Positions 3,992 to 9,182 of a stretch of DNA of 11,529 nucleotides are shown here, one piece after another (positions within the stretch are counted from its first letter, which is position 1; each line of letters opens with the position of its first letter). A program made the position numbers and the translations under genes. The DNA is from Bifidobacteriaceae bacterium NR021 (GTDB taxonomy: Bacteria; Actinomycetota; Actinomycetes; Actinomycetales; Bifidobacteriaceae). Location of the stretch: the NCBI GenBank assembly GCA_003585845.1, contig NQOP01000005.1, positions 16,704 through 28,232 on the forward strand. The letters are read 5' to 3'. A model generated the notes under the pieces. It had not been told where the DNA came from. It saw only the letters and a list, made by a program, of their open reading frames with translations, and made no database searches.

Positions 3992-4020
3992 TTGCATTTG
4001 TACTTTTATGGTGTTAGCAT
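3992..4020 (+). promoter_or_regulatory. Candidate promoter of the Trp leader / ECF operon
   Basis: TTGCAT (3992-3997) and TAGCAT (4015-4020) are separated by 17 bases. The -35 keeps the TTG and the -10 matches four of six consensus positions. This predicts a start near 4026-4028 and an untranslated leader of about 80 bases before the leader peptide. This is the best pair in the intergenic region but is based on eye matching only. Confidence 0.45.
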
Positions 4021-4109
4021 CATTTCCAACACAAACAAATATCGAATACTTCGGTTGAGGTTTGTGCGTGAACCACAGTTAGTATTAATGAGTTAAGGAG
4101 GCAGACATC

Positions 4110-4214
4110 ATGCTTAACATGAACATGAATGCTGAATCTTTTGATACTCTTAATGCTGCACGTATGTGGTGGTGGCAGTCTTCTCTTTGGCGTGAGTTTA
4201 CTCTGAAGTTTTAG
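4110..4214 (+). CDS. Trp-rich leader peptide, 34 aa
   Basis: ATG 4110 to TAG 4212-4214, preceded by a strong Shine-Dalgarno AAGGAGG (4095-4101) eight bases upstream. The peptide reads MLNMNMNAESFDTLNAAR, then MWWWQSSLWREFTLKF. Trp is at residues 20, 21, 22 and 27, i.e. four of 34 residues and three in a row. The ORF is too short for routine gene calling. The ORF ends 25 bases before the terminator stem. The peptide is not expected to have a function after synthesis; its translation rate is the signal. Since Trp is normally the rarest residue, three tandem UGG codons next to a terminator are hard to explain otherwise. The gene it precedes is a transporter rather than trpE or another biosynthetic gene. 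Confidence 0.88.
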   Translation: MLNMNMNAESFDTLNAARMWWWQSSLWREFTLKF

Positions 4215-4239
4215 AAGCTGCGTATAAAAGCTTGTAAAA
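4209..4239 (+). other. Leader hairpin overlapping the leader-peptide stop codon
   Basis: TTTTA-G-AAGCT (4209-4219) is complementary to AGCTT-G-TAAAA (4229-4239): two 5-bp blocks separated by one G-G mismatch, closing a 9-base loop. It contains the leader stop codon and ends one base before the terminator stem. A ribosome at the stop codon would open it. It may be a pause hairpin or a competing structure in the attenuator; which one is inference. Confidence 0.5.
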
Positions 4240-4270
4240 GACCTCCGGGTAAGCCCCGGGGGTCTTTTTG
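4236..4270 (+). terminator. Attenuator terminator before the ECF operon
   Basis: GACCTCCGGG (4240-4249) pairs with CCCGGGGGTC (4255-4264) as a continuous 10-bp stem with one T-G pair and loop TAAGC. An A-run precedes it and TTTTT (4265-4269) follows. Such GC content is striking in this AT-rich DNA. It lies 117 bases upstream of the S-component start, so termination here would silence the transporter genes. Confidence 0.93.
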
Positions 4271-4299
4271 TATATAAGCCTTAAATTTCAAAAATAACC

Positions 4300-4327
4300 A
4301 AATCACAAATCACAAATCACAAATCAC
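4300..4327 (+). repeat. Four tandem copies of a 7-base repeat in the 5' UTR
   Basis: AAATCAC is repeated four times without a mismatch (4300-4306, 4307-4313, 4314-4320, 4321-4327). It sits between the attenuator terminator and the Shine-Dalgarno site of the S-component gene (AAGGAG, 4375-4380). Perfect short repeats can change copy number by slipped-strand replication, which here would alter UTR length but not a coding frame. Confidence 0.9.
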
Positions 4328-4387
4328 AACAAAATATTCGGTAGCTTTGTATTCAAATAATATAAAGCTTAAACAAGGAGAGAAATC

Positions 4388-5014
4388 ATGGCTAATGAAA
4401 CTAACGAAAATGTTATGGAAGCTACTAACGGCGTTGCAAATGCAACTGCTGATGTTGCGTCGGTAATGATGAAAAATGTGAAAGTTAAGAATCATGCACT
4501 AAATATTACTTCGTTAGTGCTGGTTGCAGTTCTATTTGCAGCAGGATGCATTCTTGATTTTACTGTTGCCAAGCCTCTTTCTATTGGAAATATCCAGCCT
4601 GAGTTTGTTATTGCTTCATTCTGCTTGGCGATTTTATTGGTTCGTCCAAAAATTTATCAAGGAGCTATTATTGGAGCTCTTGCTGCAACATTAATCCAAC
4701 TTAATACTTCGATTCCATTCCTTGAATATGCGTGTGACATTCCTGCTGCAATTATTATGACAGCTATCTTAATTGGATATGTCCATCTCTTCCCAAAGGA
4801 TGCTGCTCGTAAAGTAAGTGTTTTCCCATTTATTGCAACTTTTGTTACAACAGTAATTTCTGGTTGCATTTTCGCTTCTATTGCTGCTTACTTTATTCTT
4901 CATTCTCCAAACATGGTAATTGTAATGATGCCAATTATTTTTGGTACTGCTGCATTTAATGCGATTATTGTTGAAATTCTTTATACTCCATTGCGACTCG
5001 TATTGCACAAATAA
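4388..5014 (+). CDS. ECF transporter S component, probable tryptophan specificity
   Basis: This encodes 208 aa. The start ATG has AAGGAG seven bases upstream. A hydrophilic, Asn-rich N-terminal extension (1-36) precedes about five or six hydrophobic helices between residue 40 and 203. Size, helix pattern and the adjoining A and T genes indicate the membrane-embedded substrate-binding subunit of an energy-coupling-factor transporter. The segment GNIQPEFVIASFCLAILL recalls the TrpP-type S components of Firmicutes as I remember them; this has not been tested by alignment. Substrate assignment rests mainly on the Trp attenuator directly upstream. The protein has no Trp residue, fitting synthesis under Trp shortage. 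Riboflavin-, thiamin- or biotin-type S components would be expected to carry a riboswitch or no leader rather than Trp codons. The long polar N-terminus is unusual for S components. Confidence 0.8.
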   Translation: MANETNENVMEATNGVANATADVASVMMKNVKVKNHALNITSLVLVAVLFAAGCILDFTVAKPLSIGNIQPEFVIASFCLAILLVRPKIYQGAIIGALAATLIQLNTSIPFLEYACDIPAAIIMTAILIGYVHLFPKDAARKVSVFPFIATFVTTVISGCIFASIAAYFILHSPNMVIVMMPIIFGTAAFNAIIVEILYTPLRLVLHK

Positions 5015-5016
5015 TA

Positions 5017-5064
5017 AATAAATAAATTAATAAATAAATTAATAAATAAATTAATTAATAAATT
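5017..5064 (+). repeat. 12-base AT tandem repeat after the S-component gene
   Basis: AATAAATAAATT occurs three times exactly (5017-5028, 5029-5040, 5041-5052) and a fourth time with one change (5053-5064). It starts just after the stop codon. It is pure A/T, easily melted DNA that may vary in length between strains. No function is evident. The rest of the gap to 5182 is AT-rich with several TATAAA-like strings but no clear promoter pair. Confidence 0.85.
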
Positions 5065-5182
5065 AATTAAGAAATTCTCATGATTGCATGTTTAATTGCA
5101 CGTTATACGTCATTATTAACGAATGCGTTTAATGCGTATAAATGTATAAAGTCATAGAAGTATAAATATAGAGGTATAAAAG

Positions 5183-5226
5183 CAAGTTGGCATCAGTCTA
5201 ATATGATTGGTGTCAACTTGTGTTTT
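5183..5226 (+). terminator. Intercistronic hairpin with T-run between S and A genes
   Basis: CAAGTTGGCATCA (5183-5195) pairs with TGGTGTCAACTTG (5208-5220) over 13 bp including two G-U pairs, with a 12-base loop. TGTTTTTG follows at 5221. This fits a moderate rho-independent terminator or an RNA-processing/stability hairpin lying 57 bases before the ATPase start. It would lower expression of A and T relative to S, or mark a separate downstream promoter. The in-frame ATG at 5203 lies inside its loop, another reason to prefer the ATPase start at 5278. Confidence 0.6.
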
Positions 5227-5277
5227 TGTGTTATTAATTTTTTAGCGTTTGCTCGGTGTGTTAGAGTTAGGAATGTT

Positions 5278-7242
5278 ATGTCTCAGCAAGAAAAATATGT
5301 TGCAGATAATCATTTAGTTGATTCTGCCGAACCGTGTAAAGAGCCTATGAAAAAAAATGATGAATCAGTAAAAGAAGTGCCATTGCTTGAATTAAGCAAT
5401 GTATCTTTTCGCTACGATACTCATAGTGATGAAAGTGTTGCAAATAAAGATAAAAAAGACAATGAAGGCAGTTGCAACTATGCTCTTCATAAAGTAAACC
5501 TTAGCATTCATCAAGGTGAGTTCGTTGGAATTATTGGACCTTCTGGGTCTGGTAAAACAACTCTTGCTTCACTTTTTTCTGGAGCAATTCCTCACCATTA
5601 TTCTGGCAAGTTTTTCGGAACTGTCAGAATTGCTGGTCATGACACTACTACTCTTGAGCTCACTAATATTGCTTGTTTAATTGGCTCTGTTATCCAAGAT
5701 ATTGATGCGCAAATGGTTGCTGCAAACGTTGAAGATGAGTTGCTTTTTGGTTTAGAAAACTTCGGAGTTTCTCACGATGAAATTCCTGAGCGTATAGCAA
5801 ATGCACTAGAAACTGTTGGTATTAGCAATTTGCGAAATCGTGATTTAGATACGCTATCTGGAGGTCAAAAGCAGAAGGTTGCAATAGCTGCTATTTTGGC
5901 TTTAAGGCCTAAAGTGATGGTTTTAGATGAGCCTACTTGTGCGCTGGATCCAGTTTCTTCACGTATGATTTTCGACGTTTTAAGTGATTTGAATAAAAAC
6001 TTTGGTATTACTATTGTAGTGATTGAGCAAAAAGTAGCTTTATTGAGCGAATATTGCAAGCGTCTTATAGTGCTTTCTAAAGGTGAGCTTGTTCTCGATG
6101 CTCCTGTTTGCGAAGCTCTTAAAGATATAGAGTTACTTCGTAAAGTAGGTATTAATTATCCACGCACTACTCGATTGCTTAAACAATTGCAAGATGAACA
6201 AATTTGCGATCCAGCACCTCTTAGTGTTGGAGTTGATGAAACTGTAAATACTATTGTTAAAACTTTGCGTCCTGATTATTCTAAACTTTCTAATAGCGAT
6301 TATGCGCATGATACAGAAGCTGATTTAGAACTTAATAAAGAAGATTCTAAAAAAGCTAACAATGCAGTTAATAATATTGATAAGCCATGCCTTTCAATAG
6401 ATCATGTGAGTTTTGCTTATGCAAATGAAGTCAAGGCTCTAAAAGATATTTCATTTGATGCTTATGCTGGTGAATTGATCGCACTAATTGGCAAAAACGG
6501 TGCCGGAAAAACTACTATTACAAAAATTATTAACGGTTTACTAAGACCTACTGAAGGTAGCGTAACAATTGACGGTATCGACACCAAGCCATTGCGAATT
6601 AGTCAAATAGCAAAATATGTTGCGACATTATTCCAAAATCCTGATCATCAATTATGTAAAGAGACTGTTCTTGAAGAAGTAGAGTTGAGCTGTATTTTAA
6701 TTGGTGAAGATTCTAGTCAAGCGAAAACGCACGCAATGGAAATTATTGAGAAACTTGACTTAAATCCTACTGACAGTCCATTCATGCTTTCTAGAGGTCA
6801 GAGACAAATGGTGGCATTGGCTGCAACTGTCGTAACTCGTCCTAAAATACTTGTTCTCGATGAACCAACTTGTGGGCTTGATTACAATGAATGCGTGAGA
6901 ATTATGCAAGTGGTTGAGGAGTTGCGAGCTAACGGTTGTTGCGTGATTATGGTTTGCCATGATATGGAAGTTGTTCTTGATTATGCAACTAGACTTATAA
7001 CGATTAATGATGGAAAGCTTATTATTGACGGTTCAGCGCATGATGTTTTTGAAAAACCAGACGTATGCTCAGCTGCTTCTTTATATCCACCGTTATTGTG
7101 TGCTGTTTGCCAAGGTTTGGTTTCTAACGGTTTCGAACAATGCGATGGATTGTACACGAGAAAAGAATTAGTTGAAGCGTTGCGTTTTGGTAAAATCACA
7201 AAACATAATCAGAATAAGCAGCATAATCAGCAGAATAGTTAG
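5278..7242 (+). CDS. ECF transporter ATPase, EcfA-EcfA fusion with two nucleotide-binding domains
   Basis: This encodes 654 aa from ATG 5278, which has AGGA five bases upstream; the in-frame ATG 5203 has no Shine-Dalgarno site and lies in a hairpin loop. Domain 1: Walker A GPSGSGKTT (87-95), Q-loop near Q140, signature LSGGQ (193-197), Walker B VMVLDEP, and IEQK where the switch histidine is expected (Q251). Domain 2: Walker A GKNGAGKTT (about 405-413), signature LSRGQ (504-508), Walker B ILVLDEP, switch H561 (VCHD). A charged linker (about 330-370) joins them. This is the ATP-hydrolysing pair that drives EcfT and the S component; fused pairs are typical of dedicated ECF systems. The mix of motifs predicts one consensus and one degenerate ATP site. 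No Trp residue is present. The tail is Asn/Gln/His-rich. ecfT follows after 26 bases. Confidence 0.93.
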   Translation: MSQQEKYVADNHLVDSAEPCKEPMKKNDESVKEVPLLELSNVSFRYDTHSDESVANKDKKDNEGSCNYALHKVNLSIHQGEFVGIIGPSGSGKTTLASLFSGAIPHHYSGKFFGTVRIAGHDTTTLELTNIACLIGSVIQDIDAQMVAANVEDELLFGLENFGVSHDEIPERIANALETVGISNLRNRDLDTLSGGQKQKVAIAAILALRPKVMVLDEPTCALDPVSSRMIFDVLSDLNKNFGITIVVIEQKVALLSEYCKRLIVLSKGELVLDAPVCEALKDIELLRKVGINYPRTTRLLKQLQDEQICDPAPLSVGVDETVNTIVKTLRPDYSKLSNSDYAHDTEADLELNKEDSKKANNAVNNIDKPCLSIDHVSFAYANEVKALKDISFDAYAGELIALIGKNGAGKTTITKIINGLLRPTEGSVTIDGIDTKPLRISQIAKYVATLFQNPDHQLCKETVLEEVELSCILIGEDSSQAKTHAMEIIEKLDLNPTDSPFMLSRGQRQMVALAATVVTRPKILVLDEPTCGLDYNECVRIMQVVEELRANGCCVIMVCHDMEVVLDYATRLITINDGKLIIDGSAHDVFEKPDVCSAASLYPPLLCAVCQGLVSNGFEQCDGLYTRKELVEALRFGKITKHNQNKQHNQQNS

Positions 7243-7268
7243 AAGTAAAATAAAGGCATCTGATATTT

Positions 7269-8042
7269 ATGAAAACGAGACTATTAACATATCAATCAGG
7301 CAACACATTTCTTCACCGCACAAACCCTATTGCGAAGCTAATTCTTGCTGCGAGTATTGTAATAAGCGTATTTATTGCTAAACAGTATTCTGTACTTATT
7401 GCGCTCGCTGTTATTATTTTTGTTGGCATGGCTTTTACTCATGTTGTTAAAACATTATTTGGTCTTATTAAAGCTATGCTAATAATTTCTTGCGTAATGT
7501 TTTTGCTACAAACTGTTATTGCTCAAAGTGGAAACTATATTTTTCTATGGTTTACGTTAAAAGGTATTGATATTGGAGCGAAAGCTTCTTTGCGTTTGTT
7601 CTGTTTTGCTTTTCCTCTTGTTACAGTGCTAACAGTAACTAAATTAAACGATCTTGCAAATGCTGTAGTCCAATATTTGCATATTCCATATTGTTATGCT
7701 TTTACTATAACTACTGCGGTTCGTTTTGTGCCTATTTTTGCGCAAGAAATGTCTCAAATCACAGAAGCTCAAATGGCTCGCGGAGTTGAATACGATAGTA
7801 AAAATCCATTTAAAAAATTAAAACTTATGATGCCTCTTATTGTGCCTCTTTTGGTTTCTTCAGTGCGCAAAGCAGATAGTTCTGCGCTAGCAGCGGAAGA
7901 GCGCGGATTTTATTTGCGTACACGCAAGTCTTCGTATTACAAATACCCATTCGGATGGCGTGGATTCTTGTCTTTAGTTATTTCTGCACTTATTATTGCT
8001 TTACCAATATGCACTTCAATCTTTTTGCCAAATTTAGTGTAA
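7269..8042 (+). CDS. ecfT: ECF transporter transmembrane coupling protein EcfT
   Basis: This encodes 257 aa. AAAGG (7252-7256) lies 12 bases before the ATG, a rather long spacing. The N-terminal NTFLHRTNPIAKLIL matches the family's S-x-L-H-R-x-x-P-x-x-K start. Hydrophobic helices lie at about 22-57, 63-84, 104-124 and 233-255. The two cytoplasmic coupling-helix motifs are present: MARG (169-172) and AEERGF (209-214). In known EcfT proteins these Ala-Arg-Gly-type motifs dock onto the grooves of the two ATPase subunits and pass the ATP cycle to the S component. With the S gene and the fused ATPase next to it, the set looks like a complete dedicated (group I) ECF transporter. It has two Trp codons (W94, W230), unlike S and A, which have none. 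Confidence 0.93.
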   Translation: MKTRLLTYQSGNTFLHRTNPIAKLILAASIVISVFIAKQYSVLIALAVIIFVGMAFTHVVKTLFGLIKAMLIISCVMFLLQTVIAQSGNYIFLWFTLKGIDIGAKASLRLFCFAFPLVTVLTVTKLNDLANAVVQYLHIPYCYAFTITTAVRFVPIFAQEMSQITEAQMARGVEYDSKNPFKKLKLMMPLIVPLLVSSVRKADSSALAAEERGFYLRTRKSSYYKYPFGWRGFLSLVISALIIALPICTSIFLPNLV

Positions 8043-8080: not shown

Positions 8081-8096
8081 ATTTATGAGGCTTTTG

Positions 8097-9182
8097 ATGA
8101 AAAGTGTAAAAATTTGGCTTAAGGGTGCGAGAATTTACACGCTTCCAATAGGCTTAGTTCCTGTTGTTATGGCGTTTGCGGTTTCATTTAGAATGATGCG
8201 ATTGTCGTATTTTGAAGAACCAATTATGCATCTAGAGCAATGTTTTACACAATTTTTCTTGTGCTGCATGGTTGCTGCGTTTATACAAATCGCCGTCAAT
8301 TATGCCAATGATTATTGTGACGGATTGAATGGCTTGGATGAGAATCGTAGTTTGCGTGCCTTAAGTAGCAATAATTCAAAGCCTTTATGCGATGTATCTT
8401 GGCGCCTTGCAAATGCTAGAATTTCCTCGAAATCTGTGCTTAAAGCTGTAATAATTTCTGCTTTTATTTCTTGTATTTTTGGTTTGATTATTGTTTTGCG
8501 AACTGGAATATATTGGTTTATTTTACTTGGAATTGCGTGCTTTGCTGCAGCATGGTTTTATGCAGGAGGTAAACATCCTTACGGTTATAAGGGTTGGGGA
8601 GAAGTAAGTGCGTTTGTATTTTTCGGTCCTGTTCCTTTTATTGGTTCGTTATGCGCAATTACATACGGAATTGGTATTCCAGAAACTAGCATATTTATCA
8701 ATAACGGGCAAAGGATTTTGGCTTGTGTGCTAGTATCTTGCATTCCTGGTGCTTATTCGGCTTGCTTAATGATGGTAAACAATCTTCGAGATATTAAAAG
8801 CGATAAAGAGCATGGAAAAATAACTGCTATGGTTAAAATTGGCGAGCGCAATGGTAGGCGTTTATGCGCTGCTATGAGCATTGTTTCTGCTGTTCTTTTG
8901 ATTGCATATTCTGTTTTGATTATTGCGTTACCTTCCGCAGTGCCGTCAATATGGCGATTCTATAGTGTTGAAATTTTCCTCAGTTTTAGTGCGATTGTAT
9001 GCAATTCTTCGTGGCATTTATTTTTTGCTGCTTTTCAGTGGCTCTTATTGTTAGTCATTGCAATTAAAGCTTATAAGTTTACTAAATGTGTGCTTATAGG
9101 TGATTACAAGAATGCTTTTCCTATGTGCGTTGCTCAGGCAATACTTGGTGCGCTAACTGTATTATTATCTGCGATTATATAA
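8097..9182 (+). CDS. menA: MenA-like 1,4-dihydroxy-2-naphthoate polyprenyltransferase (UbiA family)
   Basis: This encodes 361 aa from ATG 8097, chosen over ATG 8085 because GAGG (8087-8090) lies six bases upstream and the protein then starts MKSVKIWLKGARIYTLP, as MenA proteins do. The first Asp-rich motif is NDYCDGLNGLD (N71, D72, D75, D81). The second is NNLRDIKSDKEHGK (D222, D226), close to the MenA form. Between them is YAGGKHPYGYKGWGE, also MenA-like. About eight or nine hydrophobic segments indicate an integral membrane enzyme. MenA attaches a polyprenyl chain from the diphosphate to DHNA with loss of CO2, giving demethylmenaquinone; the Asp motifs bind Mg-diphosphate. No other menaquinone gene is in the window. 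The 54-base gap after ecfT leaves shared transcription possible but unproven. A different aromatic acceptor cannot be excluded. Confidence 0.82.
   Translation: MKSVKIWLKGARIYTLPIGLVPVVMAFAVSFRMMRLSYFEEPIMHLEQCFTQFFLCCMVAAFIQIAVNYANDYCDGLNGLDENRSLRALSSNNSKPLCDVSWRLANARISSKSVLKAVIISAFISCIFGLIIVLRTGIYWFILLGIACFAAAWFYAGGKHPYGYKGWGEVSAFVFFGPVPFIGSLCAITYGIGIPETSIFINNGQRILACVLVSCIPGAYSACLMMVNNLRDIKSDKEHGKITAMVKIGERNGRRLCAAMSIVSAVLLIAYSVLIIALPSAVPSIWRFYSVEIFLSFSAIVCNSSWHLFFAAFQWLLLLVIAIKAYKFTKCVLIGDYKNAFPMCVAQAILGALTVLLSAII

Follow-up and report, generated by a model that had tools for sequence, protein, structure and literature searches.

What is a short reading frame with four tryptophan (Trp) codons doing in front of a set of transporter genes? 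The question is raised by a stretch of 11,529 nucleotides from Bifidobacteriaceae bacterium NR021 (hereafter the window), in which a leader open reading frame (ORF) and a terminator precede the genes of an energy-coupling factor (ECF) transporter. From the sequence and its relatives we propose that the genes encode an ECF importer dedicated to Trp and are controlled by ribosome-mediated Trp attenuation, a reading to which we give a probability of about 0.86. The switch would probably turn Trp uptake on when Trp is short, because leader and terminator precede the importer, the host seems unable to make Trp, and a similar switch recurs in a distant class of bacteria.

The leader ORF (MLNMNMNAESFDTLNAARMWWWQSSLWREFTLKF, 4110-4214) carries three consecutive Trp codons, UGGUGGUGG (WWW), at 4167-4175 and a fourth at 4188-4190, and ends in UAG at 4212-4214. 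The terminator stem, GACCTCCGGG/CCCGGGGGTC with one G-T pair, begins 25 nucleotides past this stop, and its run of five T lies at 4265-4269. A fold of the RNA from 4111 to 4280 includes the terminator and has z = -3.1, with two of 200 dinucleotide shuffles equally stable. The original prediction had described the 34-codon leader with its Shine-Dalgarno (SD) site and four Trp codons, the 10-bp stem with T5, and the S, A-A and T genes of an ECF transporter; direct reading bears out the leader, reading and folding the terminator, and profile matches the genes, the two A parts being one fused ORF. A simple consensus scan did not list the terminator at 4240-4269 on the forward strand, perhaps, we would guess, because the stem continues into A4/T4.

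Is the leader an accident of this one genome? The pattern TGGTGGTGG is by itself not rare, with 16 copies in the genome versus 12 for a control pattern. The relatives compared were all 12 genomes of the genus that have the S gene, the window's own included. The leader, its four UGG codons and the terminator are kept in all 12, and a 24-nucleotide core of the leader (up to three mismatches) is found once in each of them and in none of 100 other genomes of the genus. In four of the 12 a one-base deletion changes the frame past the fourth Trp codon and brings an earlier stop, with the letters of the RNA retained. The stretch TTTGCATTTGTAC of the promoter-like region is likewise present in 12 of 12, and this region (3992-4020) is missing from the output of the simple consensus scan of the window.

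No known Rfam family is found in the window at its gathering score. Between 3900 and 5300, six sub-threshold matches appear at E values up to 5, including His_leader (E 1.1) and Phe_leader (E 2.2) over the leader; these matches fit the shape of a leader followed by a terminator and are no evidence of family membership. The T-box family RF00230 gives no match at the gathering score in the window and none up to E 5 in the same interval.

All components of an ECF transporter are present downstream: S, two A in one fused ORF, and T. Among solved ECF transporter structures, EcfT chains are matched by the EcfT protein (4hzu_T, for instance, at E 1.1e-17), and the AA and T genes lie 3' of S in all nine relatives with long loci (the other two were viewed within 1.5 kb). 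In Pfam, the S protein matches nothing but TrpP, PF17099 (E 1.4e-5; 25.4 bits versus a cut-off of 27.2), and no solved structural relative is found at E <= 1. Fifteen of 25 S homologues match PF17099 at E <= 0.001, the best at 4e-12, and no other Pfam family appears among the 25. Two alanines of the first helix, A47 and A51, with the AxxxA spacing of S-component alanines, are invariant across 14 rows; a role for two such alanines is described in the available part of PMC11109136. We predict that the S component binds Trp. By this match, the tryptophan transporter TrpP (YhaG; PF17099) is a close known counterpart; the window's S protein differs from it in falling under the cut-off and in being accompanied by its own EcfAA'T module. 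The Bacillus trpP gene is under TRAP control. A B. subtilis trpP mutant has been tested among S-component mutants, as far as the available part of PMC11487621 goes. In the databases, one of 115 S-type proteins is named a tryptophan transporter, and the others among the names listed are hypothetical, uncharacterized or putative membrane proteins.

In five of the 12 genomes (G058, G099, G104, G106 and G110; L013-L017, L033:5778-6359) there are two S genes in tandem, the additional one about 72-75% alike to that of the window; the window's genome has a single S gene.

Which bacteria carry the importer, and can they make Trp? The source genome (1.8 Mb, 9 contigs) is 89% complete. Nine loci with a closely similar S gene carry an organism name, eight being from Gardnerella and one from a 'Bifidobacteriaceae bacterium'; Gardnerella is placed inside Bifidobacterium by GTDB. 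Of 112 genomes in the genus, 12 have the S gene; widening the search to 189 genomes of the family again gives 12, all within this genus. TrpA (PF00290) is found in 97 of the 112, and indole-3-glycerol-phosphate synthase, the product of trpC (PF00218), in the identical 97. None of the 12 importer genomes has trpA or trpC, versus 97 of 100 non-importer genomes with both. The remaining three are G012 (96% complete), G056 (74%) and G078 (78%). Of these, G012 is a curiosity in its own right: neither importer nor trpA nor trpC at this completeness. To see whether the leader could derive from trp biosynthesis genes, we also looked for WWW leaders at eight Bifidobacterium trpA/trpC loci; ORFs with two consecutive Trp codons occur in three, and none with WWW is among the ORFs listed, trpE regions lying outside this search.

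Far from Gardnerella, the same arrangement recurs. Among 396 genomes sampled across the phylum, 30 have S matches, the window's own included, in families f1, f20, f27, f41 and f43. In the class of G525, which we take to be the Coriobacteriia, 162 of 296 sampled genomes have matches; f20, f41 and f27 would then be Atopobiaceae, Coriobacteriaceae and Eggerthellaceae. An EcfAA-like match lies within 1.5 kb of S in 51 of 52 loci of this class, and at three (L072, L074 and L078) S continues in one frame into an ECF ATPase, a natural fusion. The gene trpA is found in 30 of the 162 importer genomes versus 74 of the 134 others, an inverse tendency and no exclusion.

We collected 128 upstream regions from 127 genomes of this class, made up of 28 loci of the phylum survey and 100 from the class-survey matches listed, a listing that stops short of the weakest matches. 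G665 (contig start), G744, G818 and G819 were left out, and G426 enters with the stretch upstream of the first of its S genes. Of the 128 regions, 103 (102 genomes) hold a WWW leader ORF. In f20, 42 of these leaders have a called terminator and nine do not; a further 49 with terminators belong to a group, 'f41?', that takes in everything outside f20 and f27 (and so one f43 genome), and three to f27. In the control count, an ORF with SD and WWW occurs in 102 of 128 regions on the forward strand; reading the reverse strand gives one of 128, and Markov resampling none of 640. On inspection, the nine f20 leaders without a called terminator are followed by a hairpin whose T run is complete, short or interrupted; in L123 and L056 the call took the wrong hairpin, the proper one following it. 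A T-box motif is found in 18 regions, all from f27, and seven have neither sensor. In three of these seven (L103, L154 and L162) the leader has two Trp codons close together, in L100 and L101 a terminator stands alone, and nothing similar is seen in L067 or L071, the latter a marginal match. An Rfam match of the microRNA family MIR7486 to both strands of L054:1072-1165, a bacterial stretch, is evidently spurious.

The f27 T-boxes were matched by RF00230 in eight of ten scanned loci at 56-77 bits (gathering score 93; E < 1e-8). UGG stands in the specifier context at 17 of the 18 motif loci, and we read it as the specifier codon. At L061, L063-L066, L068-L070 and other f27 loci, a T-box with this context replaces the leader peptide before related S genes. 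Like the window's leader, these T-boxes would sense Trp-tRNA, judged from the specifier context; unlike it, they are an unrelated RNA without a leader peptide. A similar exchange of sensors, leader peptide or T-box before one gene family, is described for Firmicutes hisS/hisZ in the available part of PMC2965389, differing in that it concerns histidine, another phylum and genes of the tRNA synthetase type.

How might a ribosome on the leader decide between terminator and read-through? In Gardnerella, the leader tail GUUUACUCU(G/A) can form a 10-bp helix with the rising arm and loop of the terminator, perfect in 10 of the 12 genomes. This tail helix was noticed post hoc in the folds, with no prior hypothesis. 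The duplex has z between -1.8 and -6.2 in the 12 sequences (versus mononucleotide shuffles), and the helix would explain why GUAA is conserved in the terminator loop. Its covariation is limited, with two pairs alternating between U-G and U-A and one double change, G-C to A-U, between clades. Pairing of the leader end with loop and falling arm reaches z < -1.5 in just four of 12.

We also folded the 12 leaders with a ribosome masking 10, 12, 13 or 15 nucleotides, and counted the left terminator arm as bound upstream at P > 0.3; a footprint of about 12 nucleotides is given in the available part of PMC4833913. With the ribosome stalled at the first, second or third Trp codon, the arm is bound upstream in 12 of 12, and at the fourth in 9-12 of 12. 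At the stop codon this falls to none or one of 12, with the four short-leader genomes at 0.11-0.31. Shuffling the tail drops P from 0.55-0.77 to 0.29-0.51.

In the distant class, the 1:2 stem covaries (69 distinct pairs; none of 5000 permutations as low), and the leader tail, CGGUCRA, pairs with the terminator loop and falling arm at z < -1.5 in 66 of 77. Tail and terminator of the same locus fit one another better than those of different loci do (47 distinct pairs, with 76 of 5000 as low). The fifth base of this pairing is unpaired in 11 of 43, in nine of these as G opposite A. By the same threshold, the 1:2 duplex is found in 44 of 77 and the 2:3 duplex in 16 of 77.

From the parts described above we infer the following course of events. 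Transcription of the leader by RNA polymerase and its translation by a ribosome would go on together. With charged Trp-tRNA in short supply, the ribosome would stall at UGGUGGUGG, leaving 4196-4205 and 4209-4219 free to pair with 4245-4254 and 4229-4239. The antiterminator so formed would exclude the terminator, and S, EcfAA' and EcfT would be transcribed. When Trp is plentiful, the ribosome would reach the UAG at 4212-4214 and cover the antiterminator strand; the terminator at 4240-4269 would then fold and the importer would not be made. Coordinates of the parts are collected in the table.

Table. Features of the switch and the importer locus, in window coordinates.
Feature	Position	Strand	Remarks
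Promoter-like TTGCAT - 17 nt - TAGCAT	3992-4020	+	by eye
Shine-Dalgarno site AAGGAGG of the leader ORF	4095-4101	+	8 nt before ATG
Leader ORF, 34 codons + TAG	4110-4214	+	four Trp codons, kept in 12/12 relatives
Segment 1, GCAG-T-CTTCT	4175-4184	+	pairs with 4213-4221; 12/12 at z < -1.5
Antiterminator strand in leader tail, GTTTACTCTG	4196-4205	+	predicted; pairs with 4245-4254, terminator rising arm + loop
Inner antiterminator strand, TTTTA-G-AAGCT	4209-4219	+	predicted; pairs with 4229-4239, extending the tail helix
Intrinsic terminator, 10-bp stem + T5	4240-4269	+	read directly, folded, aligned
S component, TrpP-like	4388-5014	+	PF17099, sub-cut-off; SD AAGGAGAG at 4375-4382
Fused EcfA-EcfA' ATPase	5278-7242	+	TIGR04520 + TIGR04521, both over cut-off
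EcfT	7269-8042	+	PF02361; solved EcfT chains matched

Several observations weigh against this reading. The 12 importer genomes form a single clade, so the mutual exclusion of importer and trpA may be one event. The S protein scores below Pfam's cut-off for TrpP and has no match to an NCBIfam family. The tail helix has one mismatch in the window's own copy (also in 1500E), the narrower 2:3 duplex reaches z < -1.5 in just six of the 12, and folds of the whole antiterminator are weak (z -0.5 to -2.7). Folds without a ribosome favour the antiterminator in nine of 12, the window's included, so that the classical role of the 1:2 hairpin as a protector has no support from these folds, although the 1:2 pairing itself is present in 12 of 12. 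Finally, the terminator always wins at equilibrium, and therefore timing must decide, as it is held to do in known attenuators. On these models we still rate the tail helix as rather likely to be the antiterminator at work, and set the odds slightly lower than we might have because the window's own copy is mismatched.

With somewhat less confidence, we lean towards a conserved common plan for an actinobacterial switch of amino-acid uptake. The last codons of the leader would encode an antiterminator strand that pairs with the loop region of the terminator: in Gardnerella, GUUUACUCUR would bind the rising arm and the loop, and in the distant class CGGUCRA the loop and the falling arm. The finishing ribosome would itself remove the antiterminator. 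One family of the distant class would use a Trp T-box for the same importer, and a transfer of importer and switch from class to class may have taken place. The S proteins of Gardnerella group together (100/99) in a tree of 69 such proteins, next to a single f20 protein (86/94); we claim no donor because the tree tool flagged a long-branch join.

Could the parts be read differently? Suppose that Trp-tRNA is sensed as proposed and that the importer carries chiefly a Trp-related compound, e.g. indole or another aromatic, in place of Trp. The substrate assignment does draw on a sub-cut-off PF17099 match, on regulation and on gene loss, for a protein without a solved relative. That said, two unrelated sensors of Trp-tRNA, the WWW leader and the UGG-context T-box, precede this S family, and since the 12 have neither TrpC nor TrpA, a supply of indole alone would call for some other route; we consider this reading unlikely. 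A nascent peptide of the TnaC type, through which Trp would arrest the ribosome near the leader end and induce the importer, reverses the logic of the switch. A short Trp-containing leader ahead of a Trp-related gene is what it calls for. However, the C-terminus of the leader is not conserved, being frame-shifted in four of 12 and different in the distant class, whereas three tandem Trp codons with an intrinsic terminator suit the sensing of starvation and the lack of trpA and trpC favours uptake upon starvation, so we hold arrest by Trp to be very unlikely.

It is harder still to credit that the ORF senses nothing and that the terminator ends an upstream transcript or fixes a constant level of read-through. 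The two distant-class regions with a terminator and no recognisable leader would fit such a role. But a promoter-like stretch, an SD and UGG codons are conserved between the upstream gene and the terminator, and chance resampling does not reproduce the recurrence seen across the 128 regions. Attenuation of a Trp importer is the reading that we retain. It is also what the original prediction had suggested, and the comparisons now support it: its proposed check on UGG codons in relatives finds them in 12 of 12, leaders do stand upstream of homologous S genes in the distant class, and the one Pfam family that the S protein matches is TrpP, slightly below its cut-off. The bifidobacterium-like host foreseen there has Gardnerella as its nearest named relatives, and its supposed reliance on imported Trp agrees with the lack of trpA and trpC matches in its own genome and 11 importer relatives.

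Some further features of the locus deserve mention. A possible hairpin in the 5' untranslated region, CACAAAC...GTTTGTG with inner CGAA/TTCG, lies at 4030-4066, at the expected start of the RNA; in the alignment of 12 its outer arms are recognisable and its inner part is variable. Between S and EcfAA', a 17-bp hairpin with a T-rich tail (5182-5221) has similar counterparts in four of nine relatives examined (L026, L027, L028 and L031) and is single-copy in its own genome. It may set S above AA'T, or take part in RNA processing. The fused EcfAA' ORF has a further in-frame ATG at 5203. Next after EcfT comes a MenA/UbiA-like gene (8085-9182), which is also downstream in nine of nine long-locus relatives, farther off in L027 and L030. 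Elsewhere in the window, a single protein (667-2349) has the odd combination of zinc ribbon, VWA and C-type lectin domains.

How much of this is new? The sensor is classical attenuation, already known. Classical Trp attenuators stand before the trp operons of Corynebacterium and Streptomyces and before trpS of Streptomyces, and the available part of the paper describing them reports none before a transporter (PMC1262725). The C. glutamicum trpL and its kind likewise combine two or three Trp codons in tandem within a leader ORF, a GC-rich terminator with a T run and an alternative antiterminator (available part of PMC11995493). A conserved triple, gGCC-rGCy-GGCC, is a feature of these classical Trp attenuators. 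They control biosynthesis or a tRNA synthetase, whereas the window's controls, on our reading, an ECF importer in genomes without trpA and trpC. Among the titles and abstract beginnings listed from the open-licence literature, none concerns an ECF or TrpP gene preceded by a Trp leader; earlier predictions may stand in a 2015 paper on classical Trp-dependent attenuation in Actinobacteria, known to us by reference alone. As far as we have searched, the new elements are the ECF Trp importer as a target, the occurrence of the arrangement in two classes, the T-box as an alternative and an antiterminator that joins leader tail to terminator loop.

If the proposal is true, a bacterium unable to make Trp sets its Trp uptake by its own supply of Trp-tRNA, and classical attenuation extends from biosynthesis to an ECF importer. 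A substrate would be assigned to genes that are mostly named hypothetical. The exchange of sensors would amount to a natural experiment, in which leader peptide and T-box are interchangeable before one importer family. Furthermore, the link between Trp in the niche and the growth of Gardnerella would become directly testable.

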